Source: Egicoccus sp. AB-alg2 (lineage in GTDB: Bacteria > Actinomycetota > Nitriliruptoria > Nitriliruptorales > Nitriliruptoraceae). From it: a stretch of 64,000 nt of DNA. The position numbers were made by a program, and so were the translations under genes. This document shows positions 5,906 through 41,062 of this stretch, in pieces (the first letter of the stretch is position 1; each line of letters opens with the position of its first letter). The notes beneath the pieces are model-generated. The model ran no database searches. It was not told where the DNA came from and was given only the letters and a program-made list of their open reading frames with translations. The DNA lies in the NCBI RefSeq assembly GCF_041821065.1, contig NZ_JBGUAX010000003.1, positions 1-64,000 on the forward strand. Reading direction: 5' to 3'.

Positions 5906-6274
5906 ATGATCCAGCAGGAATCGCGGCTGAAGGTCGCGGACAACTCGGGGGCACGCGAAGTGCTGTGCATCCGGGTGCTCGGCGGGTCCGGACGGCGCTA
6001 CGCGTCCGTCGGTGACGTGTTCGTCGGCACCGTCAAGAACGCGATCCCCCAGTCCAACGTCAAGAAGGGCGAGGTCGTCCGCTGCGTGGTCGTGCGCACC
6101 GCCAAGGAGCGCCGGCGGCCGGACGGTTCCTACGTCAAGTTCGACGACAACGCGTGCGTGATCATCCGCCCGGACGGCAGCCCGCGCGGGACCCGCATCT
6201 TCGGGCCCGTCGCTCGCGAGCTGCGCGACAACAAGTTCATGCGGATCATCTCGCTCGCGCCGGAGGTGCTGTAG
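5906..6274 (+). CDS. rplN: 50S ribosomal protein L14
   Basis: 122 residues, exact family length, starting [19 protein letters not shown], with [13 protein letters not shown] and [14 protein letters not shown]14 forms an intersubunit bridge and binds RsfS. A purine-rich AGAGAGACG element precedes the ATG. Confidence 0.98.
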
Positions 6275-6607: not shown

Positions 6608-6738
6608 GCCGCCGCCGACACCAACGACCCCACACCGCGAGCCGGCCCGGCCTGTGACAGGCAGCGGGATCGGCGCCACACCGCCCGACGCGAGCGGTGC
6701 GGCCGAGTCGGCCGCGACGAACGAGGAAGACGCTTCCC

Positions 6739-7338
6739 ATGAGCGACACCGAGACCACCACCGCCCCGACGGGCGGCACCGACCGGGTCGTGCCGCGCCT
6801 AAAGCAGCGCTACCTGGACGAGGTTCGCCCGCAGCTGCTCGAGCAGCTCGGCGTCAACGCGATGCGCATCCCCAAGCTCGAGAAGATCGTCGTCAACGTC
6901 GGTCTCGGCGAGGCGGTCAACGACTCGCGCGCGCTCGAGGGCGCGATCCGCGACCTGCAGACGATCACCGGCCAGAAGCCGCGCGTGAACCGGGCCCGCA
7001 AGTCCATCGCCGGGTTCAAGCTGCGCGAGGGCATGCCGATCGGCGCGAAGGTGACGCTGCGCGGCGACCGGGCGTGGGAGTTCTTCGACCGGCTGCTGTC
7101 GGTCGCCTTCCCCCGCATCCGTGACTTCCGTGGCCTGAAGGCGACCTCCTTCGACGGCAACGGCAACTACACGTTCGGGCTCACCGAGCAGCTGGTGTTC
7201 CCGGAGATCGACTACGACCAGATCGACGCCGTGCGTGGCATGGACATCACCATCGTCACCACCGCGGACGACGACGAGCATGCCCGCGCGTTCCTGGACG
7301 CCTACGGCTTCCCGTTCGTCCGCGACACCCAAGGTTAA
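6739..7338 (+). CDS. rplE: 50S ribosomal protein L5
   Basis: 199 residues from ATG 6739, chosen because GAGGAAG (6723-6729) lies nine bases upstream; a 14-codon in-frame extension upstream has no ribosome site. The core begins [18 protein letters not shown] and shows [11 protein letters not shown] and the C-terminal FRGL and [11 protein letters not shown]5 binds 5S rRNA and forms a bridge to S13. About 17 N-terminal residues, Thr/Pro-rich, precede the usual L5 start. Confidence 0.95.
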
Positions 7339-25585: not shown

Positions 25586-26665
25586 TCAGCGGGCAGCCGC
25601 GGTCAGCAGACGTTCCAGGACCTCGCGGTTGCCGCCCTGCCGGATGCGCAGGTCCTGGCGCGCCGCGGCCACGGCCGCCCCGTTGGCCAGCACCTGCTCG
25701 AGTCCGTCGGGCACCCGGCGCAGGTCGTCGGGATCCCAGCCCAGGGCGTAGCCGCCGCTCTCGAGTTCATCGGCCAGGGCCTCGACCTTCGGGGCGTAGC
25801 CGATCAGCACGGACGGTACGCCGGCCAGCGTCGCGGCCACCCCGCCGTGGTAGCGCATCGCGACGACGGCACGGGACCGCGCGATGGTCGGCAGCAGCTC
25901 GGCCAGACTGGGCGTCACGCGGGTGGACGGCGTGCGCATCCGCTCGGCCACGCGGGCGTGGACCTCGTCGTCGCGGTCGGCCTGCAGGGCGACGAACTCG
26001 ACCGCCAGCCCGGTCCGGTGGGCGACCTCGTCCAACGCGGCGGCGAGCGCGTCGAGGTGCTCGGGCGAGGTCCGGTCGCCCTGCGCCGCGGCGGGCAGCC
26101 GCGAGTGCTCGGTGCTCCAGGGCCGCAGGCACACGGCCAGACGGTCGCGGGCGCCGGCCGTCACCGCGGGCGGCTCGACCGCGAAGGCCAGGTCGGCGGA
26201 CACGACGGCGCCGGGGACGCCCACCTCGTCCAGCAGCCGCCGGCTGTCACGGTCGCGGACGGCGATGCCGACGGCGTTCTGCATGACCGCCCCCACCAGC
26301 CCGCGTCCGAGGCCCGTCGACAGGCCACCGACCCCCAGCCCCACAGCGGCGAACGGCGTGCGCCGCAGGCGGGCGAGCCCGACCCGCGACAGGTGGTAGG
26401 GGAGGTTCAGGGCGCTGGAGTCGTCCTGCAGCAACCCGCCGCCGCCGAAGACCAGCGCGTCGGCCTCGGCGACGGCTCGCAGCAGCGTGGGGACGTCGAG
26501 GTGGCCGACCGCACCGACGCCGTGGACGTCCCGGGTCGCCGCTGGATCGATGGAGATGGCGCCGATCCGGACCCCGTAGGGCGCCAGCAGCTGGCGCAAC
26601 CCGAGGAACACCAACTCGTCACCCAGGTTGGTGGAGCCGATCCAGCCCGCCACCAGCACGTTCAT
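25586..26665 (-). CDS. csaB: Polysaccharide pyruvyl transferase, CsaB-like
   Basis: 359 residues from ATG 26665 (MNVLVAGWIGSTNLGDELVF). The GxxGxxNxGDE opening, FGGGGLLQDDSSALNLPYH, and the MRYHGGVAATLAGVPSVLIGY motif define the pyruvyl transferase family. CsaB adds a ketal pyruvate from PEP to wall polysaccharide, the ligand of SLH domains in Bacillus; the gene symbol follows that best-studied member. An in-frame extension to 26830 would overlap the divergent operon and its operator, so I reject it. The SLH protein gene nearby supports the role. Confidence 0.82.
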   Translation of the reverse strand: MNVLVAGWIGSTNLGDELVFLGLRQLLAPYGVRIGAISIDPAATRDVHGVGAVGHLDVPTLLRAVAEADALVFGGGGLLQDDSSALNLPYHLSRVGLARLRRTPFAAVGLGVGGLSTGLGRGLVGAVMQNAVGIAVRDRDSRRLLDEVGVPGAVVSADLAFAVEPPAVTAGARDRLAVCLRPWSTEHSRLPAAAQGDRTSPEHLDALAAALDEVAHRTGLAVEFVALQADRDDEVHARVAERMRTPSTRVTPSLAELLPTIARSRAVVAMRYHGGVAATLAGVPSVLIGYAPKVEALADELESGGYALGWDPDDLRRVPDGLEQVLANGAAVAAARQDLRIRQGGNREVLERLLTAAAR

Positions 26666-26753
26666 CCGGCGTCCATTCCGTTCCCTGCGCGTTTTTCCCA
26701 CCGAGGCTAACGCGCGGTTCGTCACCGGTTGACGGTGATGTCCAGTCAGCCGC

Positions 26754-26794
26754 TTGACGCACTTGTACGTATCTGTTTGCATCTTGTACGTACA
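26754..26794 (+). promoter_or_regulatory. Promoter and tandem palindromic operator of the sugar operon
   Basis: A -35-like TTGACG (26754-26759) is followed 17 bases on by TTGCAT (26777-26782). Two copies of TGTACGTA(C/T)(A/C) lie at 26764-26773 and 26785-26794, centres 21 bp apart; the second is a perfect 10-bp palindrome. One sits in the spacer and the other just past the -10, a typical repressor layout. The core GTACGTAC resembles HutC-type GntR sites (GTxTAxAC). The GntR/UTRA-aldolase in this operon is the obvious candidate; csaB diverges from the same 146-base gap. Confidence 0.65.
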
Positions 26795-26811
26795 TCCTGG
26801 CGGGAGTAGGG

Positions 26812-27570
26812 ATGGCGGGAGAGGACGCACGGCGCGTCGCGCTGGTGACCGGCGCGACGAGCGGCATCGGCCGCGCCACGGCGGAACGACTCCATGCCGA
26901 TGGTTGGTCCGTGGTCGCCACCGGCCAGGACGACCGGCGCGCCGACGAGATCGCCGCCGTCCTGCGGGATCGAGGTCACGTGGCGAGGGTCGACCTCGCC
27001 GCGTCCGATGCGGCCACGCGACTCGTCGCAGCGACGGTCGAGCGGTTCGGTCGCCTCGACGCCCTGGTCAACAACGCCGGCGTGCACACCCTGGCCACCG
27101 CCGTCGAAACCGACGACGCCACCTGGGACCGCGTGCTCGGCATCAACCTGCGTGCAGCCTTCCAGTTGGCCCGTGAGGCCATCCCGGTCATGGCGCGCGG
27201 TGGCGGCGGCACGATCGTCAACGTCGCCAGCGAGGCAGGCCTCGTCGCCGTGCCGGGTCAGGTGGCCTACAACGTGTCCAAGGCCGGCATGGTCATGCTC
27301 ACCCGCAGCCTGGCCATCGACCACGCCGACCAGGGCATCCGCGCGGTCTCGGTCTGCCCGGGGACGACGGAGACGCCGCTGGTCCGCGAGGCCATCGACG
27401 CGGCGCCGGACCCGGCGGCGCACGCCCGCACGCTCGCAGCTTCCCGGCCGGCGAAACGGCTCGGTCGGGTCGAGGAGATCGCCGCTGCGATCGCCTTCAC
27501 CGTCGGGGGAGAGGTCGGGTTCCTGACGGGTTCCGAGTTGGTGATCGACGGCGGTTACACGGCCCGATGA
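26812..27570 (+). CDS. Short-chain dehydrogenase/reductase
   Basis: 252 residues, classical SDR: TGATSGIG cofactor loop, NNAG, and the YNVSK catalytic pair with Ser in NVASEAG. First gene of the 14-gene sugar operon; GGGAGTAGGG precedes ATG 26812. It probably oxidises or reduces the imported sugar or a polyol intermediate with NAD(P). An acyl-carrier reductase role is possible by family but not by context. Confidence 0.85.
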   Translation: MAGEDARRVALVTGATSGIGRATAERLHADGWSVVATGQDDRRADEIAAVLRDRGHVARVDLAASDAATRLVAATVERFGRLDALVNNAGVHTLATAVETDDATWDRVLGINLRAAFQLAREAIPVMARGGGGTIVNVASEAGLVAVPGQVAYNVSKAGMVMLTRSLAIDHADQGIRAVSVCPGTTETPLVREAIDAAPDPAAHARTLAASRPAKRLGRVEEIAAAIAFTVGGEVGFLTGSELVIDGGYTAR

Positions 27571-27595
27571 CCACCGCAGCGATGGGAGACGCATC

Positions 27596-28852
27596 ATGAG
27601 AACGTGGAGGACGCGAGCCGCCGGAGGCGGTCTCGCCATGGCACTGGCACTCACCGCCTGCGGCAACGGCGGTGACACGACCGATCCGGGCGCGACCGAG
27701 GACGCGGGTGCCGACCCGGCCGGGGAGGGTGCCGACACCGAAGGCGGGGCGACCGACGGCGAGGCGGCCGGCGGCATCGAGGGCACCATCCGGATCGGTT
27801 GGACGCCCCCCGACGTCACGGGGGTCTTCCAGACGGCGACCAGCTTCTTCGAGCAGGCGGCCGAGGAGGCCGGGCAGCACGGGATCGACGTGCAGATCGA
27901 GACCCGGTCGCCGGCGACGCACACGGACTTCGCCGATCAACTCGCCATCGTCGAAGACTTCATCAGCGTCGGCGTGGACGTGATCGCCATCTCGCCCGCG
28001 GACACCGAGGCGATCCTGCCGGCGATCCAGCAGGCGAACGCCGCCGGCATCCCCGTGATCATGGTCAACCTCCTCGAGGAGCTCGAGGGCGTGGACATCG
28101 CGTCGTACGTCGGGTTCAACAACAGCGACGCCGCGGAGGTGTCCGGCTATGCCGTCCTCGACTACTTCGGCGGGCCCGGCGTGCTCGGGGAAGGCGAACA
28201 GGTCGACCTGCCGGAGGACGGCTATCTCGATCTCGAGTGGTGGCGATCGGTCTACGAGGACGCGGACCTGAGCCAGGTCGAGGCGTCCGGTGCGATCATC
28301 GAGGGCATCGCCGGCACCTTCTTCTCGCAAGCCCGCCTCGACGGTTTCGACGCGGCCATCGGGGAGGTCGACGGCATCGAGATCGTCGCCGAGCCGATCG
28401 CGGCGGACTGGAACCGCGAGCAGGGAACATCTGCCGCGGAGACGTTCCTGAGCCGTTTCGGTGAGGAGGAGCTCGACTTCATCTGGGCGGCGTCCAACGA
28501 GATGGGGCTCGGCGCGGCTGCCGCCGCTGAACGCGCCAACCGCTTGGACGACAGCGGCGGTGAAACCCCCCACGAAGAAGGCTCTGTCGCGATCTTCACC
28601 AACGACGTCACGCCGGAGTCGGTGGACGCTATCCGCGAGGGGCGGATCGTCGCCGAGACCCACCACGGGTTCGCGGAGTGGGGCTGGTTCGGCACCGCGT
28701 TCGGGGTCCAGCTCGCCTGCGGCATCGAGGTGCCGCAATTCCAGGACATCCGTCCGCGCACCGTTTATGCCGGGAACGCCGACGACTTCTACCCCGACCC
28801 TGCGCTGCCGGAGATCGATTGGGACGAGATCGTCGCCAACTGCCAGCGTTGA
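27596..28852 (+). CDS. Sugar ABC transporter substrate-binding lipoprotein
   Basis: 418 residues. The lipoprotein signal ends in LTAC. An acidic Gly/Asp linker leads into a two-lobed periplasmic-binding-protein fold of the ribose/galactose type (GVDVIAISPADTEAILPAI, IPVIMVNLLEE). Longer than typical RbsB-like proteins by roughly 80-100 residues, mainly from the linker and an insertion near residues 195-225. It would capture the sugar outside the membrane for the next two gene products. Confidence 0.88.
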   Translation: MRTWRTRAAGGGLAMALALTACGNGGDTTDPGATEDAGADPAGEGADTEGGATDGEAAGGIEGTIRIGWTPPDVTGVFQTATSFFEQAAEEAGQHGIDVQIETRSPATHTDFADQLAIVEDFISVGVDVIAISPADTEAILPAIQQANAAGIPVIMVNLLEELEGVDIASYVGFNNSDAAEVSGYAVLDYFGGPGVLGEGEQVDLPEDGYLDLEWWRSVYEDADLSQVEASGAIIEGIAGTFFSQARLDGFDAAIGEVDGIEIVAEPIAADWNREQGTSAAETFLSRFGEEELDFIWAASNEMGLGAAAAAERANRLDDSGGETPHEEGSVAIFTNDVTPESVDAIREGRIVAETHHGFAEWGWFGTAFGVQLACGIEVPQFQDIRPRTVYAGNADDFYPDPALPEIDWDEIVANCQR

Positions 28853-28867
28853 GGACGGGGGACGGTC

Positions 28868-30352
28868 GTGCCACTGCTCGAGCTTCGCGAGGTGAGCAAG
28901 TCCTATCCGGGTGTGCAGGCGCTCACCGGCGTCGACCTGACCGTCGACGCCGGTGAGGTCCACGGGCTGCTCGGCCAGAACGGGGCCGGCAAGTCCACGC
29001 TCATGAAGATCATCGCGGGAGCTGAGATGCCGGACGCGGGGCGCATGCTCCTGACCGGCGAGCCGGTCGGGTTCGGTTCGCCGGGCGAGGCCCGCGCCCG
29101 CGGCATCGGCATCGTCTACCAGGAACTGTCGCTGGTGCCGTCGATGTCCATCGGCGAGAACGTGCTGCTCGGCCGGTGGGCGCGTCGTGGTGGCCTGGTC
29201 GATCTCGGCCGAACCCAGGAGGAGGCCCGGCCGTACCTGCAGCGGGTGGGTCTCGACCTCGACCCCATCACCCGCACCTCGACGTTGGGGATGGCGGAGC
29301 GGCAGCTGGTGGAGATCGCCAAGGCCCTGTCGACGGATGTCCGCATCCTGCTGCTCGACGAGCCGACCTCGGCCCTGTCGGATCGCGAGTCGCGTCGGCT
29401 GTTCCAGGTCATCCGTGATCTCACGGGCGACGGGGTCGCCGTCATCTACGTCTCGCATCGGTTGCCCGAGGTCCTGGAGATCTGTGACCGCGTGACGGTG
29501 TTGCGCGACGGCATGCGGGTCGGAGACCTCGAGGTCGCCGGCGTCGACGAGGGACAGTTGGCGCGACGCATGGTCGGTCAGAGCGTGACCCTCGACGAAC
29601 CACCTGCAGGTCGAACCGCGACCGACGCCGAGGTGGTGCTCCGAGCCCGCGGCGTCGGCCGCCCACCGCGGCTGCGAGCATTCGATCTCGAGCTGCGGGC
29701 GGGCGAGGTGGTCACGGTCTTCGGGCTCGTGGGCGCCGGTCGGAGCCGTCTGGCGAACACCCTGTTCGGCATCGAACCCGCCACGGAGGGCAAGCTGGAG
29801 CTGTTCGGGCGCGAGGTCCGACTCCGCTCGCCGCAGGACGCCATCGCCGCCGGCGTCGGGTATGTCGGCGAGGACCGCGCCGCCGGGTTGGTCCCCCGTA
29901 TGACGGTCGCGCAGAACATCGTGCTGGCGTCGTTGCGTCGGCTCGGTCGAGGCCCACTGCACGACCGCGCCGAGGAGCGCCGGCTCGGGGAGCGTTACGT
30001 CGAAGCGCTCAACATCCGCACGCCGTCGGTGGACCAGCCGGTGGCGAACCTCTCCGGCGGCAACCAGCAGAAGGTGTTGCTGGCGCGCTGGTTGTGCTGC
30101 GAAGCCCGCTTCCTGATCCTCGACGATCCCGTGCGCGGTGTCGACGTCGGGGCCAAGGAAGAGGTCTTCCGCCTCGTGCGCGAACTGGCCGATGACGGCG
30201 TGGCGATCCTGTACATCACCTCCGAGCTACGAGAGGCAAAGGCTCTGGGGGATCGCGTGCTGGTCATGGCCGATGGACGCATCAGCGCAGAACTGCCGCC
30301 GACGAGCAGTGAGGACCAGATCATGACGAGCGCGGGAGGCGTCCATGTCTGA
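28868..30352 (+). CDS. Sugar ABC transporter ATP-binding protein (two ABC domains)
   Basis: 494 residues from GTG 28868. The first ABC domain has GQNGAGKSTL, the Q-loop YQELSLVPSM and Walker B LLLDEPTSAL. The second has a degenerate Walker A (VFGLVGAGRSRL), signature LSGGNQQKVLLARWL and ILDDPVRGVDVG. This is the RbsA/XylG/MglA architecture of CUT2 importers for monosaccharides. It overlaps the permease gene by eight bases. Confidence 0.93.
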   Translation: MPLLELREVSKSYPGVQALTGVDLTVDAGEVHGLLGQNGAGKSTLMKIIAGAEMPDAGRMLLTGEPVGFGSPGEARARGIGIVYQELSLVPSMSIGENVLLGRWARRGGLVDLGRTQEEARPYLQRVGLDLDPITRTSTLGMAERQLVEIAKALSTDVRILLLDEPTSALSDRESRRLFQVIRDLTGDGVAVIYVSHRLPEVLEICDRVTVLRDGMRVGDLEVAGVDEGQLARRMVGQSVTLDEPPAGRTATDAEVVLRARGVGRPPRLRAFDLELRAGEVVTVFGLVGAGRSRLANTLFGIEPATEGKLELFGREVRLRSPQDAIAAGVGYVGEDRAAGLVPRMTVAQNIVLASLRRLGRGPLHDRAEERRLGERYVEALNIRTPSVDQPVANLSGGNQQKVLLARWLCCEARFLILDDPVRGVDVGAKEEVFRLVRELADDGVAILYITSELREAKALGDRVLVMADGRISAELPPTSSEDQIMTSAGGVHV

Positions 30353-31385
30353 GCAGGTGTCTGGCACCACCACCGCGGGGGGCCGGCTGGGGCGGGCCGG
30401 AGGTGTGGTGCGCCGAGCGACCGTCGGCGCCGGTGGACTCGGCGGCGCGTTGGTGATGCTCGCCGTTCTCATCATCATCTTCTCGCTCGCGTCTCCGAGC
30501 TTTCTCACCCTCAACAACCTGATCAACATCCTGCGCCAGTACTCGGTGGTGCTCGTGCTGGCTGTCGGTCAGACGCTCGTGATCATCTCCGCAGGCATCG
30601 ACCTGTCCGTTGCGGCAACGGCGGCCCTGGCCGGCAGCGTCATGGGCATCGCCTATGCGCATGCCGGTATGCCGTCCGCGGCCGCGATCGGGCTGGGGCT
30701 GCTGTCCGGTTTTCTCGTGGGCATGTTGAACGGCCTCGCGATCACCAAGTGGAAGGTGCCCGACATCATCGCGACGCTCGGCACGCTCACGGCCGTCCGC
30801 GGCGTGGCGCTGCTGTTCACCGGTGGGTTGCCCGTGCCCGACTTCAGCCAGGCCGTCGAGGGCCGTCGGATGCCGCCGCTGATCTCCACGCTCGGTGCGG
30901 GCAGCCTTGGCCGGCTGCCGATGATCATCATCGTGGCCGCCGCCTGCTGCGCTTTCGGGTGGTTCGTGCTGAACAGGACCACGCTCGGACGTTCGATCGT
31001 CGCCGTGGGTGGCAATCGCGAAGCCGCGCACGTGTCCGGCGTCAACGTGGACCGGACGAAGCTGCTGGTCTACGTGATCTCGGGAACCCTCGCCGCGATC
31101 GGCGGGATGCTGCTCGCCGGTCGCCTCAACTCCGCCAACGCCCTGATGGCCAACCTGATGGAGCTCGACACCATCGCGGCGGTCGTGATCGGTGGCACGG
31201 CGCTCTTCGGTGGTGAGGGGCGAGTCAGCGGCACGGTCGTGGGCATCTTCATCATCGCGGTGCTCGCCAACGGCCTGAACATCCTCGGCGTGTCCGACTT
31301 CTGGCAGCGCGTCGTGACGGGTCTGATCATCGTCGTGGTGGTCGCCATCGACCAGTGGCGTCGACGCGCCGCGGCCGCGGCCTAG
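30345..31385 (+). CDS. Sugar ABC transporter permease
   Basis: 346 residues, eight to ten hydrophobic helices, CUT2 permease like RbsC/XylH: VGQTLVIISAGIDLSVAATAAL and AVGGNREAAHVSGVNV, GGTALFGGEGRVSGTVVG. A 30-residue Gly/Arg-rich N-terminus lies in the cytoplasm. Completes the importer with the two preceding genes. Confidence 0.93.
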   Translation: MSEQVSGTTTAGGRLGRAGGVVRRATVGAGGLGGALVMLAVLIIIFSLASPSFLTLNNLINILRQYSVVLVLAVGQTLVIISAGIDLSVAATAALAGSVMGIAYAHAGMPSAAAIGLGLLSGFLVGMLNGLAITKWKVPDIIATLGTLTAVRGVALLFTGGLPVPDFSQAVEGRRMPPLISTLGAGSLGRLPMIIIVAAACCAFGWFVLNRTTLGRSIVAVGGNREAAHVSGVNVDRTKLLVYVISGTLAAIGGMLLAGRLNSANALMANLMELDTIAAVVIGGTALFGGEGRVSGTVVGIFIIAVLANGLNILGVSDFWQRVVTGLIIVVVVAIDQWRRRAAAAA

Positions 31386-31403
31386 CCGCCAGGGAGACAT
31401 CGG

Positions 31404-32429
31404 ATGACCGCACTTCGAGTCGTGCTCGTCGGCGCCGGACGCGCCGGCATGGTGCACGGACGCAACTTCGCTGCTGGGGTCCCCGGGGCGACGCTGATTG
31501 GCGTGGCCGACCCCGATCGACAGGCTCGGGAGGCCGCCGCACACGAACTCGGCGTGGACCGGGCCTTCGCCGACCCGTCCGAGGCCGTGACCGACGACCG
31601 GGTCGACGCGGTAGTCATCGGCGCCCCGACGTTCACCCATGCCGACACGGCGGTCGCGGCCCTGAAGGCGGGCAAGCACGTGCTGTGCGAGAAGCCCATG
31701 GCCACCACCCTCGACGAGGCCCACGCCATGGCCGACGCGGCCGAGCAGTCCAGCGCGGTCTTCCTGATGGCGTTCATGCGCCGGTTCGACGCCGGGTTCC
31801 GACGCGCCGCCGAGCGGATAGCCGCCGGGGACATCGGGAAGCCGGTGCTGGTGCGCTCCACCGGCCGTGGGCCGGGACTGCCGCCCGAGTGGGCTTGGGA
31901 CACCAGCGTCTCCGGCGGGCTGGTCGCCGAGGTGAACTCGCACGACATCGACACCATCCGCTGGCTGTCCGGGCAGGAACCGACGCGCGTGTTCGCCGTC
32001 GGGCGTGCGGCCAAGCGGCCCGACCTCGCCGAGCGGTACCCCGGCTTCGTCGACACCCTCGTGGCGACCCTGGAGTTGTCGGACGGTGCCATGGGCCAGT
32101 TCGACGGTGCGTGCCCCGCCGACTACGGCTACGACGCCCGCGTCGAGGTGTACGGCACCGAGGGCACCGTGCTGGTCGGCGGGCCGACCAGCGGGCCGCT
32201 GCTGGTCCGCGCTGGGGGAGGCGAGGTGGACCCAGTGCGGTCGTGGCGGACGCTCTTCGCCGACGCCTACCGCGAGGAGGACCGTCACTTCGTGGCCGTC
32301 GCCCGGGGCGAGGAGGCACCGCTCACCGGTGCGTCCGACGGCGTGCGGGCGCTCGCCACGGTGGCCGCGGCCAACCGCTCGATGGCGACCGGACAACCCG
32401 TGGCGCTGGCGGAGGTGCTCCCGGCGTGA
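31404..32429 (+). CDS. Gfo/Idh/MocA-family oxidoreductase
   Basis: 341 residues. Rossmann start VVLVGAGRAGMVHGRNFAAG, the EKP motif (HVLCEKPMATTLDEAHAM) and the catalytic-type His in VNSHDIDTIRWLSG. Members oxidise a hydroxyl of inositols, sugars or keto-sugars with NAD(P). The stop overlaps the next GTG by four bases. Exact substrate not deducible. Confidence 0.87.
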   Translation: MTALRVVLVGAGRAGMVHGRNFAAGVPGATLIGVADPDRQAREAAAHELGVDRAFADPSEAVTDDRVDAVVIGAPTFTHADTAVAALKAGKHVLCEKPMATTLDEAHAMADAAEQSSAVFLMAFMRRFDAGFRRAAERIAAGDIGKPVLVRSTGRGPGLPPEWAWDTSVSGGLVAEVNSHDIDTIRWLSGQEPTRVFAVGRAAKRPDLAERYPGFVDTLVATLELSDGAMGQFDGACPADYGYDARVEVYGTEGTVLVGGPTSGPLLVRAGGGEVDPVRSWRTLFADAYREEDRHFVAVARGEEAPLTGASDGVRALATVAAANRSMATGQPVALAEVLPA

Positions 32430-33388
32430 GGGCACTGCGGATCGTGGGGCCGGGCGCGGCGACCATCGAGGTGGTCGAGCCGCCCGTGCCCGCCGAAGGC
32501 GAGGTCCTCGTGGACGTCGCCGTCGCCGCCGTGTGCAACACCGATCGCAAGCTCGTCCGTTGCGGCTTGCCGCCGGGCCGCACGCCCGGCCACGAGGTCG
32601 CCGGCAGGCTCGCCGACGGCACCGCCGTGGGGGTCCACCCCGACGTCGGTTGTGGACAGTGTCCGTGGTGCCTGCACGGGCAGACCAACCGGTGCCCCTG
32701 GAAGTGGTCGCTGGGGATCGACCGTGACGGCGGACTGGCCGGCCGGCTGGTGGTGCCGCGCGACCATGCCGTACCGCTGGACGGCGTGCCGCTCGAACTC
32801 GCGCCGCTACTCGAACCGCTGGCCTGCTGCGTGCACGCCCACCACCGGCTGGGCTCGGTGACCGGCCCGGCCGTGGTCGTCGGCGGTGGCGCCATGGGCA
32901 TCCTGACCACCTGGGTCCTGCAAGCCGCTGGCCATCGCACGGCCGTGTGCCAACGCAGCCCCGGGCGCCGGCGGCTGGCGGCTGGGCTCGGCGCTGACGC
33001 CGTCCTCGGACCCGACGAGGACCCTGCCGCCGTACTGGGCGAGCCGGTCTCGGCGATCGTGGTCACCGCCCCCGGGGCCGAGCCGCTGCGATGGGCTCTG
33101 GAGCACGTCGCCGAGGGCGGTGTGGTCCACGCCTTCGCCGGCACTCCCGGCGGCGCCGACGTCGACGCCAACGTGGTGCACTACCGCCACCTCGACCTCG
33201 TCGGCAGCACCGGTTCGGGCCTGCGCGACTACCGCGAGGCCATCGCCCTCGTGTCCGGTGGCTCGGTCCCGCTCGACCGGTTTCCCGTCGTTCGCACCGA
33301 CCTCGACGGCGCCGTGACCGCCGTCACGACCCCTGCGGAGCGGCAGCACCTCCGCACCGTCATCGACCTCGCAGGAGACGACCGATGA
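32426..33388 (+). CDS. Zinc-dependent medium-chain alcohol/polyol dehydrogenase
   Basis: 320 residues from GTG 32426. Catalytic-zinc Cys in AAVCNTDRKLV, PGHEVAG, and a four-Cys structural zinc loop CGQCPWCLHGQTNRC. Rossmann loop VVGGGAMGILTTWVL. Sorbitol- or threonine-dehydrogenase-like. Somewhat shorter than the usual 340-350. Overlaps both neighbours by four bases, so translated as part of the operon. Confidence 0.86.
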   Translation: MRALRIVGPGAATIEVVEPPVPAEGEVLVDVAVAAVCNTDRKLVRCGLPPGRTPGHEVAGRLADGTAVGVHPDVGCGQCPWCLHGQTNRCPWKWSLGIDRDGGLAGRLVVPRDHAVPLDGVPLELAPLLEPLACCVHAHHRLGSVTGPAVVVGGGAMGILTTWVLQAAGHRTAVCQRSPGRRRLAAGLGADAVLGPDEDPAAVLGEPVSAIVVTAPGAEPLRWALEHVAEGGVVHAFAGTPGGADVDANVVHYRHLDLVGSTGSGLRDYREAIALVSGGSVPLDRFPVVRTDLDGAVTAVTTPAERQHLRTVIDLAGDDR

Positions 33389-33951
33389 TCCCCAACCAGG
33401 ACCCCTTCACGACCTGGGCCGACCTGCGCACCGGCGCGCTGCAGCCCGAGCGCGACCTCGCCGAACGGCGTCTCGCCGACATGAAGGGCTACTACCTCGA
33501 CGGGGACGGGATGGAGGACCGGTTGATCTACCGCGTCTCGGCCATCCCGGTGCCGGCGACCAACGACGAGATCGCCTCGTCGACGACGGTGATCGAGCCG
33601 GGCACGGTCGGACGCGAGTACCACATGACCAAGGGCCACTTCCACGCGACGTGGACTCGGTCCGAGATCTACGTCGGACTGGCCGGCGAGGGGCTGCTGC
33701 TGCTGGCCCGTGAGGACGGCGAGCATCGGGAGGAGCCGCTGCGTCCGGGCAGCATCAACTACATCCCGGGTGGCTGGGCCCACCGCAGCGTGAACGTCGG
33801 CGACGAGCCGCTGGTGTTCCTGGCGACCTACATCGGTGACGCCGGCTACGACTACAAGACCATCGAGGAGCAGGGATTCCCGCAGATCGTCGTACGCGGT
33901 GACGACGGCCGTCCCGAGGTCGTCGCCAACCCGCGTTACCGCACGCGTTAG
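33385..33951 (+). CDS. Cupin-type glucose-6-phosphate isomerase-like protein
   Basis: 188 residues. The cupin motifs HMTKGHFHATWTRSEIY and PGSINYIPGGWAHRSVN match the metal-dependent archaeal-type phosphoglucose isomerases (Pfam GPI), which interconvert aldose and ketose phosphates. Here it may act on the operon's own sugar phosphate. Start ATG 33385 overlaps the upstream stop by four bases. Confidence 0.82.
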   Translation: MIPNQDPFTTWADLRTGALQPERDLAERRLADMKGYYLDGDGMEDRLIYRVSAIPVPATNDEIASSTTVIEPGTVGREYHMTKGHFHATWTRSEIYVGLAGEGLLLLAREDGEHREEPLRPGSINYIPGGWAHRSVNVGDEPLVFLATYIGDAGYDYKTIEEQGFPQIVVRGDDGRPEVVANPRYRTR

Positions 33952-33964
33952 GGAGGCGGGGGAC

Positions 33965-35479
33965 GTGGTCGTCTTCGTCGGCTGCGACCTCGGCACCATG
34001 GGCAGCAAGGCGGCCGTGGTGGACGAGGAGGGCCGCCTGCTCGGCGAGGCGTTCGAGGAGGTGCCGCTCGAGCGTCCCCGTGCGGGATGGGTCGAGCAGG
34101 ACCCGCTGCGCATCGAGGCCTCTGCCCATCGTGTGGTGCACGAGGCCGTCGCTGCCTCGGGACGGGCGGACGACGTGGCCGCCATCGCCTTCTCCGGGCA
34201 GATGTCGGGTATCGGCACCGCGGACGCCGGCTTCCGCCCAGCCACACACTACGACTCGTGGCTGGACACCCGGTGCGAGCCCTACATCCAGCGGATGTCG
34301 GAACACGCCGACCGGGTGGTCGCGCTGGCCGGCTGCCCGCCGACCTACTGCCACGGCCCCAAGCTGCTGTGGTGGCGCGAGGAGCGACCCGACGTCTACC
34401 GCCGCATCCGCCGGTTCCTGCCCATCGGCTCGTTCGTCGCGGCCCGCGCATGCGGGCTGTCGGTCGACGACGCGTTCGTCGACCACACCTACCTCCACTT
34501 CTCCAACCTCGCCGACACCGCGGCCGGCACGTGGTCCGACGAGCTGCTCGAGCTCTTCGGCGTCGACCCCGAGGTCCTCCCGCGGATCGTCGAACCGACG
34601 GCCGTGGTCGGCGAGCTGACCCCGGACGCGGCCGCGGCCACCGGTCTGGCCCCGGGCACACCGGTCGCCGCCGGCGCCGGGGACACCGCCGCCGCGGCAC
34701 TCGGTGCCGGCGTCGTGGGACCTGGACGGGCGTTCGACCTCGCCGGCACCGCGAGCGTCCTGGCGATCGGGGTCGACGGCTTCCACCCCGACCATGCCGC
34801 CCACACCATGATGGCGACGCGCGGGGTGGTACCCGGCACGTTCGTCAACCTCGCGTTCATCAACGGCGGCGGGCTGGCCCTGCGCTGGTTCCGGGACGAG
34901 ATCGCCACGCACCTCGCTGGCGATCCGGAGGCCTACCGCAAGCTCGACGAGGCGGCCGCGGACGTGGCCGTCGGCGCCGAGGGGCTGCTGTGGTTCCCCC
35001 ACCTGCAGGGCCGGGTACTGCCACCGGCGCCGCACGCTCGCGGCAGCTGGGTGGGGCTGACCAGCCGCCACAGCACGGCACACCTGTACCGGGCTCTGCT
35101 CGAGGGCATCGCGTTCGAGTACGCCGAGTGGGTGCGCCTGGCCGACCAGGCCGGGGGGCAGCGGGTCACCGAGGCCCGCGCCCTCGGCGGCGGCGCCGCC
35201 AGTGTCCTCTGGAACCAGATCAAGGCCGACGTGCTCGGCATCGACTGGATCCCGACCCTCGTGCAGGAGTGCGGTGTGCTCGGCGACGCGCTGATCGCCG
35301 CGATCGCCACGGGCCACGTGACGGACGCGCAGGCCACGATCGAGCGCTGGCAGGCGACAGGCGACGCGGTCGGGCCGGACCCCCACCGTCACGCCCGCTA
35401 CGTGGCGCTCCAGCCCGCCTACCGCGTGATGGCCGAGTCCCTCGGCCCCGTGTTCGACCGACTCGCGGAGACCACGTGA
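33965..35479 (+). CDS. FGGY-family carbohydrate kinase
   Basis: 504 residues from GTG 33965. The N-terminal FVGCDLGTMGSKAAVVD and the catalytic-Asp segment VAAGAGDTAAAALGAG with a downstream ATPase fold place it among xylulokinase-like FGGY kinases. It would phosphorylate a ketose or polyol produced by the dehydrogenases or epimerase. Stop overlaps the next ATG by one base. The substrate group (xylulose, ribulose, erythritol, others) cannot be assigned by eye. Confidence 0.88.
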   Translation: MVVFVGCDLGTMGSKAAVVDEEGRLLGEAFEEVPLERPRAGWVEQDPLRIEASAHRVVHEAVAASGRADDVAAIAFSGQMSGIGTADAGFRPATHYDSWLDTRCEPYIQRMSEHADRVVALAGCPPTYCHGPKLLWWREERPDVYRRIRRFLPIGSFVAARACGLSVDDAFVDHTYLHFSNLADTAAGTWSDELLELFGVDPEVLPRIVEPTAVVGELTPDAAAATGLAPGTPVAAGAGDTAAAALGAGVVGPGRAFDLAGTASVLAIGVDGFHPDHAAHTMMATRGVVPGTFVNLAFINGGGLALRWFRDEIATHLAGDPEAYRKLDEAAADVAVGAEGLLWFPHLQGRVLPPAPHARGSWVGLTSRHSTAHLYRALLEGIAFEYAEWVRLADQAGGQRVTEARALGGGAASVLWNQIKADVLGIDWIPTLVQECGVLGDALIAAIATGHVTDAQATIERWQATGDAVGPDPHRHARYVALQPAYRVMAESLGPVFDRLAETT

Positions 35480-36366
35480 TGCCCATCACGAACCTGCTCG
35501 GCGTCCACGCCCTGGTGTGGACCGCCGCCGCCGACTCGGCCAGCATCGACGCCGCCTGCCGCAGCACTGCGGCCGTCGGCTACGACCTGCTCGAGGTCCC
35601 GCTGCTGGAACCCGCCGAGGTCGACCCCGTTGCGACCCGCGCGTCGCTGGGCGCGGCGGGGATCACGGCCAGCTGCTCGCTCGGGCTCGACTTCGACACC
35701 GACATCTCGTCCACCGACGCGGGCACGGTCGAGCGGGGCGCGCGTCTGCTTATCGACGCGCTGGAGGTCACTTCCCGCCTGGGGGCCGACTACCTCGGCG
35801 GACCGATCTACAGCGCGATGGGCAAGTACACCCGACCGGCTACCACGCGGGGCCGAGCCAACGCCGTTCGCGTCCTGCGCGAGCTGGCGTCCGAGGCCGC
35901 GACGAGCGGCGTGACGATCGGGCTCGAACCGGTCAACCGCTACGAGTCCAACGTGCTCAACACCGTCGACCAGGCGCTGGCGCTCATCGACGAGATCGGT
36001 GCGGACAACCTCGTGGTCCACCTCGACACCTACCACGCCAACATCGAGGAACGTGCCATCGTCCGGGCTGTCCACACCGCGGCCACGGCGGGCCGGCTGG
36101 GGTACGTGCACGTCGGCGAGAGCCACCGTGGACACCTCGGCACCGGGTCCATCGTGTGGGAACCAGTGTTCGCGGCCCTCGGCGAGAGCGACTACCGCGG
36201 TCCGATCGTCTTCGAGAGTTTCTCGTCCGCCGTCGTCTCGCCCGCCTTCGCGGCCGCGCTCGGTGTCTGGCGGGACCTGTGGACGGACTCGCACGAACTG
36301 GCCGGCCACGCCCACGACTACCTGACGCGCCACCTGACGGCCGACGTGGTCGGGGGTGCCGAATGA
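35479..36366 (+). CDS. Ketose 3-epimerase / sugar-phosphate isomerase (AP-endonuclease fold)
   Basis: 295 residues from ATG 35479. The metal-ligand set of D-tagatose/D-psicose 3-epimerases is seen in order: Glu in IGLEPVNRYE, Asp and His in HLDTYHANIEE, His in YVHVGESHRGHLGTG, Glu in VFESFSS. So it likely epimerises a free ketose at C3, before the kinase step. The length is right for the family. Confidence 0.87.
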   Translation: MPITNLLGVHALVWTAAADSASIDAACRSTAAVGYDLLEVPLLEPAEVDPVATRASLGAAGITASCSLGLDFDTDISSTDAGTVERGARLLIDALEVTSRLGADYLGGPIYSAMGKYTRPATTRGRANAVRVLRELASEAATSGVTIGLEPVNRYESNVLNTVDQALALIDEIGADNLVVHLDTYHANIEERAIVRAVHTAATAGRLGYVHVGESHRGHLGTGSIVWEPVFAALGESDYRGPIVFESFSSAVVSPAFAAALGVWRDLWTDSHELAGHAHDYLTRHLTADVVGGAE

Positions 36367-36743
36367 GGACCACCCGCTTCGACGCCACGCCGGACGGCGG
36401 CGTCCGCGTCGTCGTCGACGAGGCGCCCGCGTTCGCGCCGATGCCCGACTGGAACGGCGAAACGTTGAACGGGGTGCGCCTGCACGAGATTGAGCGGCGC
36501 GGCGACATCGAGCTGCAGCTGGTAGAGATCGCCGCCGGCGGCTCCTTCGTCATGCACGCCAGCCCGAAGCTCGCCTTCTGCCACGTCGTGCGTGGTGCCG
36601 GCCGGCTCGGGCTGCCGGGCGGCGAGTCGCTGGCCTACCGCGGCCCCGAGACCTACGTCTTCCACCCCGGCGCCCTCCACGACTGGCACGACGTCGAGGA
36701 GGACACCCTCCTGGCCGTTGCGATCGTGCCGGACGCGACGTGA
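36363..36743 (+). CDS. Small cupin-domain protein
   Basis: 126 residues, single cupin barrel. GSFVMHASPKLAFCHVVRG and the second motif PGALHDWHDVEEDTLL. Possible metal-dependent sugar isomerase or binding protein; no exact family recognised. Overlaps the genes on both sides by four bases. Confidence 0.7.
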   Translation: MRTTRFDATPDGGVRVVVDEAPAFAPMPDWNGETLNGVRLHEIERRGDIELQLVEIAAGGSFVMHASPKLAFCHVVRGAGRLGLPGGESLAYRGPETYVFHPGALHDWHDVEEDTLLAVAIVPDAT

Positions 36744-38230
36744 CGCCCGCCTCGACACCAAGGACCCTGCCGATGACCGACACGGTTGCCGACGGCGGCA
36801 CGATCGACCGGACCTCCCCGACGCCGCTCTACCACCAACTCGAGCAGATCCTGCGCACCGACATCCAGGGCGGGGTGTACGCCCCCGGTGACCTGCTGCC
36901 GTCCGAGAACGAGATCTGCGAGCGCTACGACGTGTCCCGGTCCGTCGTGCGCCAGACGCTGCAGAACCTGGCCCGCGCCGGCTTCATCCACACCGAGCGT
37001 GGCCGCGGCAGCTTCGTCGTGGAGAGCAAGGTGTCCGAACGCTTCGTCCAGCAGGCGGCGGGGTTCTACGAGGACCTGACCCGGATGGGACTGGAGGTGA
37101 CCACCGAGGTCGTGCGCCAGGGGATCGCACCGGTGCCGCTCGAAGTGCGCGAGTTCCTGGGCGTCGACAGCGCCGTGCGCATCGATCGCGTGCGCTCGGT
37201 CGACGGCCGGCGGTTGCTCTACGTCACGACGTACATCCCCGTCGAGCGCTGCCCGGGTCTGGAGGCGCACGATCTCACCGACCGCTCGCTCTACGCCCAC
37301 CTCGAGGAGGCCTACGGCTTGCGCGTCCACTCGGGACGCCGCTCCATCGAGGCGGTGCCCGCCGAGGAGGACGCCGCCGAACACCTCGGGATCCCGCCCG
37401 GCGCCCCGGTGCTGCTGCTCCGATCGGCGAGCCGCTCCGAGGACGGGCAGCCGCTGGAGTGGTTCGCCGCCTGGCACCGGGCCGACCGGACCCGGTTCGA
37501 GGTCGAGATCGTCGACGGCAAGGCGGCCCAGCCGGTCCAGCAGACGGTCATCGCCGCGGCGACACCGCCCATCCCGGCCACGGCCGAGACCGACGTCCGC
37601 GACGGCTTCCGGCAGCACCTCGAGCGCGAACGCGTCATCGCCGTCGTGCGCGCGCCGTCGTACGGGGACGGGGCGGCGGTGGCCGGCGGGCTCCTTGACG
37701 GTGGGGTGTCGATCGTCGAGTTCACGCTCACGGGCACCAACGCGCTCCAGGCCATCGAACAGGCTCGGGCCGGCGTGCCGGACGCCCTGATCGGGGCCGG
37801 CTCCGTGCTGACGCTGGAGGACGCCCGCCGCGCGGTCGAGGCGGGAGCGCAGTTCCTCGTTTCGCCGGCACGGCTGCGGGAACTGGTCAGCGTGGACCTC
37901 GGCGTGCCGGTCGTGCTGGCCGGCTACACCCCGTCGGAGGTGCTGGAGGCCTACCGCCTCACCCGGGGGTCGCCGGTCAAGGTGTTCCCCGCATCCGCGG
38001 GCGGGCCCGGCTACCTGCGGGCGCTCGCCGCACCGATGCCGAAGGTCCCGTTGATGCCCTCGGGCGGCGTCGACGAGACGAACCTGGCCGAGTTCCTCGC
38101 CGCCGGCGCGTTCGCGTTGAACCTCGGCTCCTCGCTGTGCCCGGTGCCCGCCGTCGTCGAGGGTGACGCCGCCCAGCTGCGACGCCGGGCGACGACCGTG
38201 CGGGCCCGGGTCGACGAGGCCCTGGGATGA
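36740..38230 (+). CDS. GntR/UTRA transcription regulator fused to a KDPG-aldolase domain
   Basis: 496 residues in one uninterrupted frame. Residues 22-95 are a GntR winged helix (TPLYHQLEQILR, LPSENEICERYDVSRSVVRQ split here by the turn). Residues 105-257 are a HutC-type UTRA ligand domain. A 30-residue linker leads to a complete Eda-type aldolase, residues 290-496: VIAVVRA, Glu327 in VEFTLTG, IGAGSVLT, FLVSPA, Schiff-base Lys414 in SPVKVFPA, and MPSGGV. Eda cleaves KDPG to pyruvate and glyceraldehyde-3-phosphate. GTG 36740 overlaps the cupin gene; ATG 36773 is an alternative start. Probably represses its own operon. Confidence 0.88.
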   Translation: MTPASTPRTLPMTDTVADGGTIDRTSPTPLYHQLEQILRTDIQGGVYAPGDLLPSENEICERYDVSRSVVRQTLQNLARAGFIHTERGRGSFVVESKVSERFVQQAAGFYEDLTRMGLEVTTEVVRQGIAPVPLEVREFLGVDSAVRIDRVRSVDGRRLLYVTTYIPVERCPGLEAHDLTDRSLYAHLEEAYGLRVHSGRRSIEAVPAEEDAAEHLGIPPGAPVLLLRSASRSEDGQPLEWFAAWHRADRTRFEVEIVDGKAAQPVQQTVIAAATPPIPATAETDVRDGFRQHLERERVIAVVRAPSYGDGAAVAGGLLDGGVSIVEFTLTGTNALQAIEQARAGVPDALIGAGSVLTLEDARRAVEAGAQFLVSPARLRELVSVDLGVPVVLAGYTPSEVLEAYRLTRGSPVKVFPASAGGPGYLRALAAPMPKVPLMPSGGVDETNLAEFLAAGAFALNLGSSLCPVPAVVEGDAAQLRRRATTVRARVDEALG

Positions 38231-39171
38231 CCGTGGTCGTGGTCTCGTCGCGGTCGTTCGGGTCAGGTTGCGCGGACCCGGAGGCGCGCCTGCGCGAGGC
38301 CGGTGTCGAGGTGCGCCGGATCCCGTCCGACCACGATCTCGCCAGGTGCGGGCCACAACTCGCGGACGCCGACGGCTGGATCGCCGGGACCGGCCCGATC
38401 CGAGGCGAGCACCTGCGGGCCGCCCCACGGCTGCGGCTGGTCGCCCGCTACGGCGTCGGCGTCGACAGCGTCGACCGCGCCGAGGCCGCGGCCCGTGGCG
38501 TCCTCGTCACCAACACGCCAGGAGCGAACACCCGGGCGGTCGCCGAGCACACCCTTGCTCTGCTGCTCGGCGCACTCCGCCACGTCGTGGCGGGCGACCG
38601 GGCGGTTCGGGCCGGCGACTGGGCGCCGCGCCGCGGCCGCGAGCTGGCCGACTGCCGGGTCGGGATCGTCGGGTACGGCGCCATCGGGCGGGCCGTCGGG
38701 CGGCTGGTCGCCGCCTTCGGCGCCGAGGTCGCCGCGCACGACCCCTGGGTGACCGACGCCGACGTCGACCTGGTGGACCTCGACACGCTGGCGGCCAGCT
38801 GCGACGTGCTGAGCCTGCACGCACCGGCCGGGGACCGTCCACTGGTCGACACGGCGCTGCTCGGCCGGATGCGGCCCGGCGCCGTGTTGGTGAACACCGC
38901 CCGTGGCGGCCTGGTGGACGAGGCGGCGGTCGCGACCGCGCTCCGCGACGGCCGGCTCGCCGGGTTCGCCGCGGACGTCCTCGCCGACGAGCACGGCGCC
39001 AGCAGCCCCCTCTTCGACGCCCCCAACGTGACCGTCACGCCGCACGTGGCCGGGCAGACCGTGCAGGCGATCGACCGCATGGGTGCGGCGGCCGCCGACG
39101 AGTGCCTGCGGGTGCTCGTCGAGGGACGCCCCCCGCGCCATCCCGTCCCGCCGCCCCGAGCCGAGGAGTGA
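38227..39171 (+). CDS. D-isomer-specific 2-hydroxyacid dehydrogenase
   Basis: 314 residues. NAD loop VGIVGYGAIGRAVG, catalytic Arg in NTARGGLVDEAAV, and His in VTPHVAGQT. Related to phosphoglycerate dehydrogenases but in a catabolic operon, so it may act on a sugar-acid or hydroxypyruvate-like product of the aldolase. Overlaps the regulator-aldolase gene by four bases. Confidence 0.85.
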   Translation: MTVVVVSSRSFGSGCADPEARLREAGVEVRRIPSDHDLARCGPQLADADGWIAGTGPIRGEHLRAAPRLRLVARYGVGVDSVDRAEAAARGVLVTNTPGANTRAVAEHTLALLLGALRHVVAGDRAVRAGDWAPRRGRELADCRVGIVGYGAIGRAVGRLVAAFGAEVAAHDPWVTDADVDLVDLDTLAASCDVLSLHAPAGDRPLVDTALLGRMRPGAVLVNTARGGLVDEAAVATALRDGRLAGFAADVLADEHGASSPLFDAPNVTVTPHVAGQTVQAIDRMGAAAADECLRVLVEGRPPRHPVPPPRAEE

Positions 39172-39176
39172 GCACC

Positions 39177-40115
39177 ATGTCGCAGTCGGACCGTCGCCAG
39201 ACCTTCGGTTTCGTCGGCGTGACCGCCACGCGGTCGTCGATCAACCGGGTGTTCCCGCGATGGGCCGACGTTCTCGGGCTGGGCGAGGTGGTGTTCGACC
39301 CGATCGACCTCGACGTCGACGTGGACTCGGCGGCCTACCGCGAGGTGGTCGGCCGGATGGCGCAGGACCCCGGCTACCGCGGGGCGCTGGTCACGACGCA
39401 CAAGGTGCGTCTGCTCGAGGCGTGCCGCGACCTGTTCGACGAGCTCGACCCGTACGCCGAGCTGCTCGGCGAAGTGTCCTGCATCGCGTCGAGCGACGGG
39501 CGGCTGCGTGGCTCGGCCAAGGACCCGATCACGTCGGGGCAGTCGCTCGCGGACTTCGTCCCGGCCGGTCATTTCGAGCGCACCGGCGGTCACGTGCTGT
39601 GCCTCGGGGCCGGCGGCGCCGGACTGGCGATCACGGTCCACCTGCTGACGGGGGCGCCCGCCTGCGGACGCCCGGACCGTGTCGTCCTGGTCAACCGCGG
39701 CGAAGCGCGCCTCGAGGAGTGCCGTCGCGTGCTGACGCAGCTCGACGTCCTCGACCGTGTGGACCTGGTCGCCAACTCCGACGTCGAGGTCGACGACGAC
39801 CTGTGCGCCGAGTTGCCCGACGGGTCCCTGGTCGTGAACGCGACCGGCATGGGCAAGGACCGCCCGGGGTCGCCGATCAGCGACGCCGCCGTCTTCCCCC
39901 GCGACGGGCTGGTGTGGGAGCTCAACTACCGGGGCGACCTCGACTTCCTCCATCAGGCCCGTGCCCAGCAGCAGGGCCGCAACCTCACGGTCGAGGACGG
40001 CTGGCGCTACTTCGTGTACGGCTGGTCGGCCGTGGTCGCCGACGTGTTCGGGCTCGACCTCGACGCCGCGACCCTCGCGCGGCTCTCCGACGAGGCGGCG
40101 GTGGTCCGCTCGTGA
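39177..40115 (+). CDS. Shikimate-dehydrogenase-like oxidoreductase
   Basis: 312 residues from ATG 39177. The layout is that of AroE: an N-terminal substrate domain with SSINRVF and ALVTTHKVRLLE (compare NVTxPxK), KDPITSGQSL in place of NTD, and a Rossmann loop LCLGAGGAGLAI. The substitutions at the shikimate-binding positions and the operon argue against aromatic biosynthesis. Likely NAD(P)-dependent oxidation of a sugar acid or polyol. Overlaps the lactonase gene by four bases. Confidence 0.75.
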   Translation: MSQSDRRQTFGFVGVTATRSSINRVFPRWADVLGLGEVVFDPIDLDVDVDSAAYREVVGRMAQDPGYRGALVTTHKVRLLEACRDLFDELDPYAELLGEVSCIASSDGRLRGSAKDPITSGQSLADFVPAGHFERTGGHVLCLGAGGAGLAITVHLLTGAPACGRPDRVVLVNRGEARLEECRRVLTQLDVLDRVDLVANSDVEVDDDLCAELPDGSLVVNATGMGKDRPGSPISDAAVFPRDGLVWELNYRGDLDFLHQARAQQQGRNLTVEDGWRYFVYGWSAVVADVFGLDLDAATLARLSDEAAVVRS

Positions 40116-41062
40116 CCGACCGCGTCGTCCGCACCGTGCTCGGCGACCTGCCGGCGAGGTCCCTGGGACGCACGGACTACCACGAACACCTGCTGCAGGT
40201 GACCCCGCTGCTGCCGGGCGACGAACTCGACGACGTCGACGTGTCCGCGGAGGAGACCGCGCGCCTGCGCGACAGCGGCTTCGACGCGCTGGTCGATCTC
40301 ACGCCGATCGGGCTGGGTCGCGACCCCACCGGGCTCGCCGAGATCTCGCGCCGCACGGGCGTCCACGTCGTCGCGGCCACCGGCGTGCACCGCGAAGGGC
40401 ACTATCCCGACGACCACCCGGTCCGCCGCTGGGACGTGGCCCGCCTGAGCGAGGTGTTCGAGGCGGAGATCACCGCGGGCCTGCTCGTCGACCCGTTCGC
40501 CGACGGCCCGGTGGGCACGACCGTCCGCGCCGGCGTGATCAAGGTGGGCACGGACTACTGGCGGATCGGGGCCTTCGAGGCGGCCGTGCTCGAAGCCGCC
40601 GGCGTCGCGCAGGCGCGCACCGGCGTGGCCGTCGTGTGCCACCTGGAGCTCGGGACGGCGGCCTGGGAAGCCGCGGACGCCCTCGAGCGGGCCGGCGCGG
40701 ACCGCCGGCGCATCGTGCTGGCACACGCCGACCGTAATCCCGACCCGGGTCTGCACCTGGAACTGATCGCCTCTGGTGTCACGCTCGGCTACGACGGTGC
40801 CGGTCGCACGAAGTACTGGCCCGACTCCGTGCTGCTGGACTGTCTCGCCGTCGTGGTCGAGGGCGGCGGCGGCCACGGGCTCCTGCTCGGGGGCGACGTC
40901 GCGCGAAGGTCGTCGTTCGAGGCATGCGGAGGCCTGCCGGGCATGGCCTACCTCGGCCGCCGGTTCGTGCCGCGCATCGCCGTCCGCTGTGGTGAGCGGG
41001 TGGTCGAGCAGTTGCTGGTGGAGAATCCGGCGCGCGTCTTCGCCGTACCTCGGCGCGGCTAG
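40112..41062 (+). CDS. Phosphotriesterase-family lactonase
   Basis: 316 residues from GTG 40112. Metal-site residues follow the PTE order: HEH (RTDYHEHLL), bridging Lys in GVIKVGTDY, His in VVCHLELGT, His in VLAHADRN, Asp in LLGGDVARRS. Relatives hydrolyse sugar lactones or phosphofuranose lactones. That fits a pathway in which one of the dehydrogenases makes a lactone. Last gene of the operon; 153 bases separate it from glmS. Confidence 0.82.
   Translation: MTDRVVRTVLGDLPARSLGRTDYHEHLLQVTPLLPGDELDDVDVSAEETARLRDSGFDALVDLTPIGLGRDPTGLAEISRRTGVHVVAATGVHREGHYPDDHPVRRWDVARLSEVFEAEITAGLLVDPFADGPVGTTVRAGVIKVGTDYWRIGAFEAAVLEAAGVAQARTGVAVVCHLELGTAAWEAADALERAGADRRRIVLAHADRNPDPGLHLELIASGVTLGYDGAGRTKYWPDSVLLDCLAVVVEGGGGHGLLLGGDVARRSSFEACGGLPGMAYLGRRFVPRIAVRCGERVVEQLLVENPARVFAVPRRG

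Follow-up and report, generated by a model that had tools for sequence, protein, structure and literature searches.

Which protein recognizes the paired palindrome in front of the sugar operon described here, and does it serve that operon alone? In the window, by which we mean the whole stretch of 64,000 nucleotides that was analysed, a gap of 146 bp separates the start of a divergent csaB-like gene (26665) from the start of the sugar operon (26812), and TTGTACGTA occurs in it at 26763 and 26784. The operon comprises 14 co-directional and closely spaced genes (26812-41062, Table 1), a layout from which a single transcription unit is predicted. We consider it likely, with a probability of roughly 0.86, that the two boxes act as the operator for this operon and that the protein binding them is the GntR/UTRA-aldolase fusion encoded within it (36773-38230). 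With the regulator encoded by gene eleven of the same operon, the circuit would be one of negative autoregulation. As a control circuit this is ordinary. It ties a GntR/UTRA subfamily to a concrete candidate operator that is predictable from a short recognition-helix motif, and it offers a way into the study of an unusual repressor-aldolase fusion and of its sugar pathway.

Table 1. Coordinates of the candidate operator, the promoter-like elements and the surrounding genes in the window
Feature	Position	Strand	Basis or remark
csaB-like polysaccharide pyruvyl transferase	25586-26665	-	divergent neighbour, probably outside the regulon
-35-like TTGACG (putative)	26755-26760	+	read from the sequence; consensus scan negative
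Box 1	26763-26772	+	TTGTACGTAT; one good half-site, second half degraded
-10-like CATCTT (putative)	26780-26785	+	between the boxes, overlaps left end of box 2
Box 2	26784-26795	+	TTGTACGTACAT; holds palindrome TGTACGTACA (26785-26794)
Short-chain dehydrogenase (SDR), first operon gene	26812-27570	+	PF13561
Sugar ABC transporter binding protein	27596-28852	+	Pfam
Sugar ABC transporter ATPase	28868-30352	+	Pfam
Sugar ABC transporter permease	30345-31385	+	Pfam
Gfo/Idh/MocA oxidoreductase, zinc dehydrogenase, cupin-type GPI, FGGY kinase, sugar epimerase-like TIM barrel, small cupin-like protein	31404-36743	+	
Small cupin-like protein, gene ten	36366-36743	+	named by sequence reading; without Pfam match
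GntR-UTRA-aldolase fusion, proposed regulator	36773-38230	+	eleventh gene; frame open from GTG 36740
2-hydroxyacid dehydrogenase, shikimate-dehydrogenase-like protein, phosphotriesterase-family protein	38227-41062	+	
Shikimate-dehydrogenase-like protein	39177-40115	+	NCBIfam matches below cut-off only; without Pfam match

The box pair and its promoter region

A first-pass annotation of this DNA had pointed to repeats 21 bp apart with one perfect 10-bp palindrome, and both features were recovered: TGTACGTA starts at 26764 and again at 26785, and TTGTACGTACA (26784-26794) contains the palindrome, TGTACGTACA. Between the end of box 2 (26795) and the operon ATG at 26812 lie 16 bp. The pattern is rare. 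All three matches of TGTACGTA in the window fall on the box pair (one is the palindrome read in reverse), compared with a mean of 0.10 and a maximum of 1 in 100 dinucleotide shuffles of the window. The genome search for the same double site that had been proposed returned one occurrence of TTGTACGTA-8 to 14 nt-TTGTACGTA in 4,835,776 bases, namely the sugar-operon site, and exact TTGTACGTACA is likewise found once in the whole genome (4.8 Mb). With one mismatch there are four further matches, the same number as for the reversed-pattern control: the reverse reading of box 2, window position 50368 and a site on contig C6 counted in both readings. The match in the window (50368-50378, TTGTCCGTACA, minus strand) lies inside the coding frame 49471-50478 and was taken as chance. 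Short palindromes do arise randomly and the promoter is weak, but given the rarity of the pair in window and genome and the recurrence of the box before operons of relatives (Prauserella, genome G038 and the two surveys below), a functionless chance palindrome is a very remote explanation.

The promoter itself has to be judged with more caution. The -10 of a reasonable promoter had been placed between the boxes; TTGACG and CATCTT are indeed present, but they lie 19 bp apart, a long spacer, and a sigma-70-like consensus scan of 26600-26900 found no promoter. We therefore treat the sugar-operon promoter as weak and unproven. The overlap of CATCTT with the box is identical in eight related loci (L014, L015, L125, L127, L128, L130, L131, L132) and absent in five (L126, L129, L134, L135, L183), a recurrence that is suggestive only as evidence for a -10 element.

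Is the divergent csaB-like gene controlled as well?

The boxes sit in a gap shared by two divergent genes, and single and double sites in divergons are described as able to serve both sides (PMC4494728). Joint control of csaB, raised as an option by the first-pass annotation, is nevertheless improbable. Three genomes of the same genus (G001, G002, G003) lack the operon and have a luciferase-like gene, csaB and glmS in direct succession; their csaB-glmS gaps hold no box within 4 mismatches, and the fused protein has no match there at E <= 1e-30. Box and operon are thus missing together, so that one was gained or lost with the other, and the likelier role for csaB is that of a bystander. A -10-like element of csaB (26709-26704, by reading), common to the window and G002, is also over 50 bp away from box 1. 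The whole operon (26812-41062) separates csaB from glmS, genes that are direct neighbours in G001-G003; this reflects either a gain here or a loss there.

A putative repressor fused to an aldolase domain

The HutC-type protein that had been named as the eleventh gene is confirmed by gene order and by its domains, both above their Pfam cut-offs: a GntR winged helix (PF00392, 68.1 bits versus a cut-off of 27) and a UTRA ligand domain (PF07702, 124.3 bits versus 23.8). Its recognition helix reads SRSVVRQ, and among the 17 above-cut-off GntR HTH hits of the genome only the fusion carries RSVVRQ. By Pfam, these hits comprise 9 FCD, 3 UTRA and 3 aminotransferase proteins, 1 SBP_bac and 1 DeoR protein. 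On contig C8 a GntR HTH is joined to an extracellular solute-binding domain, SBP_bac_1 (L209:289-1689).

The C-terminal part of the regulator resembles KDPG/KHG aldolase (Eda), from which it differs in being joined to a DNA-binding GntR repressor. It matches PF01081 and, with E 2.9e-27, the KDPG aldolase structure 1wa3, where the VEFT and VKVFP stretches align, presumably the sites of the catalytic Glu and Lys. Against the NCBIfam Eda models the fused domain stays below the curated cut-offs. Of the 66 genomes of the class, only 3 matched the fusion (G000, which is the genome of the window, G006 and G038; E <= 1e-45), and a search of 396 genomes of the phylum gave the same 3 (E <= 1e-60). Genome G038 has two copies, and the fusion loci beyond the window are L094, L095 and L096. 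Titles and abstract openings in the literature yielded nothing on this GntR/UTRA-aldolase regulator, including its operator letters, the kdgT link and the aldolase fusion.

A more speculative and rather unlikely reading is that the fused aldolase is active and makes the repressor a trigger enzyme, which would sense flux through the cleavage of a 2-keto-3-deoxy-sugar-acid phosphate. The cleaved compound would then be the regulator's own ligand or compete with it. A dimeric repressor joined to a trimeric aldolase could build a multivalent assembly that holds several boxes at once.

The same box beside distant homologues

Among the best 80 of 124 relatives scanned, only two loci matched the GntR-UTRA part (by query ranges), L014 and L015 of Prauserella flavalba and P. 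endophytica. Their homologues are unfused, the reading frame stopping after UTRA, and their GntR-UTRA parts are 40% identical to that of the window regulator. At position 6722 both loci carry TTGTACGTACAACATGTACG and, at the same place, our reference 12-mer, TTGTACGTACAA. The KdgT gene of L014 begins at 6770, 48 bp from the box start, and is followed in the operon by a sugar-kinase-like gene (PF07005/PF17042, scanned in L015, which we take to be DUF1537), pdxA (scanned in L014) and gntR. Although gene content differs from that of the window operon, box and regulator remain together.

Genome-wide counts of TTGTNNGTACA were made in five genomes, G000, G006, G038 and the two of Prauserella. The pattern occurs 5 times in G038 (4.6 Mb), against 0 for the reversed-pattern control, and 4 of the 5 places lie inside the two fusion loci. 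Three of these head genes: L094:3572 before an SDR gene, L094:7212 before an ADH gene and L095:6946 before an SDR-led operon; the fourth, L095:6747, is within the preceding coding sequence. Counts elsewhere were 3 in G000 (one being the window site), 2 in each Prauserella genome (one each at the gntR operon) and 0 in G006, with reversed-pattern controls of 3, of 2 and 3, and of 1, respectively. The fusion locus of G006 has ATGTCCGTACAG, with 3 mismatches, 26 bp before the GPI-cupin gene; the boxes of G006 and L095 are the weaker ones, at 3 mismatches.

Two surveys extended the comparison. Six GntR-UTRA parts were aligned into a profile, A1, which was run against 298 genomes of the order of Prauserella; 27 matched at E <= 1e-45, and the first survey comprised 26 loci, with Prauserella itself left out. 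The helix motif RSV[VI]RQ had been noticed beforehand, and the limit of 2 mismatches was fixed in the survey script. A box within 2 mismatches of TTGTACGTACAA lay upstream in 10/10 RSV[VI]RQ loci and in 1/16 loci with other helices (L149, 6.2 kb away). In eight of the ten the distance from the regulator is 3.3-3.5 kb, and in L134 and L135 the box lies about 190 bp before the matched part. Markov random sequences contained an equally good match in 0 to 2 of 60 cases for the ten RSV[VI]RQ loci and in 2 of 60 for L149. In nine of the ten a second box follows 13 bp further on, a spacing that varies, being 21 bp in the window. Behind the box, kdgT was identified by Pfam in L014 and L129 and by similar start sequences in L125, L131 and L132. 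In L129 two adjoining boxes make up one long dyad (6064-6088, TTATACGTACAACATGTACGTATAA).

For the second survey, the prediction that RSV[VI]RQ loci have the box and others do not was written before the new loci were inspected. Searching 396 genomes of the phylum gave 18 matches at E <= 1e-50, 3 of them already known, hence 15 new loci. The single RSVVRQ locus (L183, genome G073) has its boxes at -173 and -160, again 13 bp apart; none of the 14 other-helix loci has an upstream box within 2 mismatches, 6 of these having less than 3 kb of upstream DNA. Pooled, the surveys give 11/11 for RSV[VI]RQ against 1/30 for other helices (Fisher p = 3.8e-9, uncorrected for relatedness), or 11/11 against 1/24 without the six short-upstream loci (p = 2.9e-8). 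The p-value overstates independence because many RSVVRQ loci are closely related, the boxes of L125-L128 and L130 being nearly alike; judged by eye, the loci represent perhaps six to eight separate lineages.

The box tracks the helix rather than overall similarity. Two loci with the helix RTVVRQ (L179 and L180, E 4.2e-74) have no box in more than 9 kb of upstream DNA, whereas three RSVVRQ loci with weaker E values do (L134, 8.9e-73; L135, 2.3e-72; L183, 9.3e-65). Locus L133 (RTAVRQ) has no box within its 3.2 kb of upstream DNA, a length that a box at 3.3-3.5 kb could escape. In another RTVVRQ locus, L182, TTGTAATTACAA occurs with 2 mismatches just downstream of the gntR match (+796) and TTGTAATGACAA upstream (-1016); perhaps the two represent a related operator with a different centre.

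The comparison shows the candidate box travelling with the regulator subfamily and its RSV[VI]RQ helix across distant actinobacteria, where it heads different operons. Since distant relatives carry the same sites before their own operons, the boxes are very probably landing sites of the repressor. The idea of autoregulation, first put forward for the window alone, thereby gains strong support from comparative genomics, the box recurring before the operons of homologues in Prauserella, G038 and the surveys. In such a circuit one regulator dimer would bind each box. The window boxes would lie two helical turns apart on the same face of the DNA and be filled cooperatively, and the bound regulator would cover the -10/start region and thus repress. 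Binding of a sugar-acid intermediate of the pathway to the UTRA domain would release the repressor.

What type of box is it?

The window regulator shares its GntR winged helix and UTRA domain with the HutC proteins (NagR/YvoA, DasR, TreR, PhnF), from which the aldolase domain fused behind UTRA in the window, G038 and G006 sets it apart. The HutC consensus given in PMC4494728 is NyGTMTAKACNy; the same source describes GT and AC as 4 nt apart in most HutC sites and records double sites for the subfamily. The box had been called near this consensus, which is correct for the GT-4 nt-AC arrangement of TTGTACGTACA but not for its centre, where CG replaces the central TA. A standard HutC operator is ruled out by this CG centre. 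It occurs in 28-29 of 30 compiled boxes, a count that is biased because most of these were found by their likeness to TTGTACGTACAA.

A closer match is offered by AraR of Bacillus subtilis, whose box consensus is given as At(T/A)tGTaCGTAcaa(A/T)T, with paired boxes and cooperative binding (PMC4218819). The core of TTGTACGTACA agrees with it, that is, GTaCGTAc with outer TT/AA, while the outermost A/T bases match only in part. Judged from residue spacing rather than a computed alignment, E44, R55 and R59, which are invariant in A1, correspond to the Glu and two Arg of the AraR HTH. AraR has a LacI-type ligand domain, in contrast to the UTRA and aldolase domains of the window regulator, and at HTH position 39 it has His where the window regulator has Ser.

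Could an AraR-like regulator encoded elsewhere in the genome bind the box instead? Besides the shared core and the use of paired boxes, there is a GntR protein with a solute-binding-protein domain (L209) that has Ser after the first helix Arg (ISRSPVNRAL). We hold this to be highly improbable, as none of the 17 above-cut-off GntR HTH hits has a LacI-type domain by Pfam and the box is found together with HutC-type proteins in other genomes.

HTH position 39 has been correlated with the central bases 12/13 of the operator (Suvorova et al. 2015, PMC4494728). Residue counting puts Ser at this position, residue 56 in the numbering of A1, in the boxed proteins; the 30 other-helix homologues have Thr, Met, Ile, Gly or Leu there. 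We infer that Ser at this position may set the CG centre of the box.

A second HutC-type regulator with a similar box

The main alternative to binding by the fusion, and a possible one, is cross-talk between two HutC-type regulators. The boxes would be bound wholly or partly by the regulator on contig C6 (helix SRHTVRE), with the sugar promoter as a second or cross-talk target. This has to be treated as a live rival because a nearly identical box stands at that regulator's own sulfur operon: TTGTCCGTACAA occupies L097:7119-7130, with 56 bp left to the ATG at 7187, and the GntR-UTRA gene ends a persulfide-dioxygenase-like/TauE operon that is headed by AATTGTCCGTACAATT. Recurrence of the site ahead of unrelated genes that have a different regulator had been named as a finding that would speak against the fusion, and TTGTCCGTACAA at the dioxygenase operon goes part of the way. 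The C6 helix also has His at position 39, as in AraR. Relatives of the dioxygenase in G001, G007 and G005 have similar upstream 12-mers, and the one in G005 keeps the same TGTCCGTACA core, which implies that the core is used by a second regulator. Still, the sugar-type box accompanies RSVVRQ proteins in other genomes, and the inspected genes behind it are sugar-acid or sugar genes, none of them sulfur genes, so that we regard binding by the C6 protein as a minor prospect next to binding by the fusion.

The C6 locus deserves a description of its own. At L097:7117-10910 (G000 contig C6, 107116-110909), the palindrome AATTGTCCGTACAATT heads a persulfide-dioxygenase-like gene, a TauE/SafE exporter and a HutC-type GntR gene, an arrangement that resembles another autoregulated HutC system. 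Relatives of the dioxygenase gene occur at 9 loci in 7/8 genomes. Upstream of those of G010 (L193, L201), G002 (L198), G004 (L197) and the second G001 copy (L200) no similar 12-mers occur, and they are present, with 2 or 3 mismatches, in G001 (L194), G007 (L195) and G005 (L196). For the dioxygenase of G038 (L199), one match lies at -32 with 4 mismatches and another on the start codon with 3.
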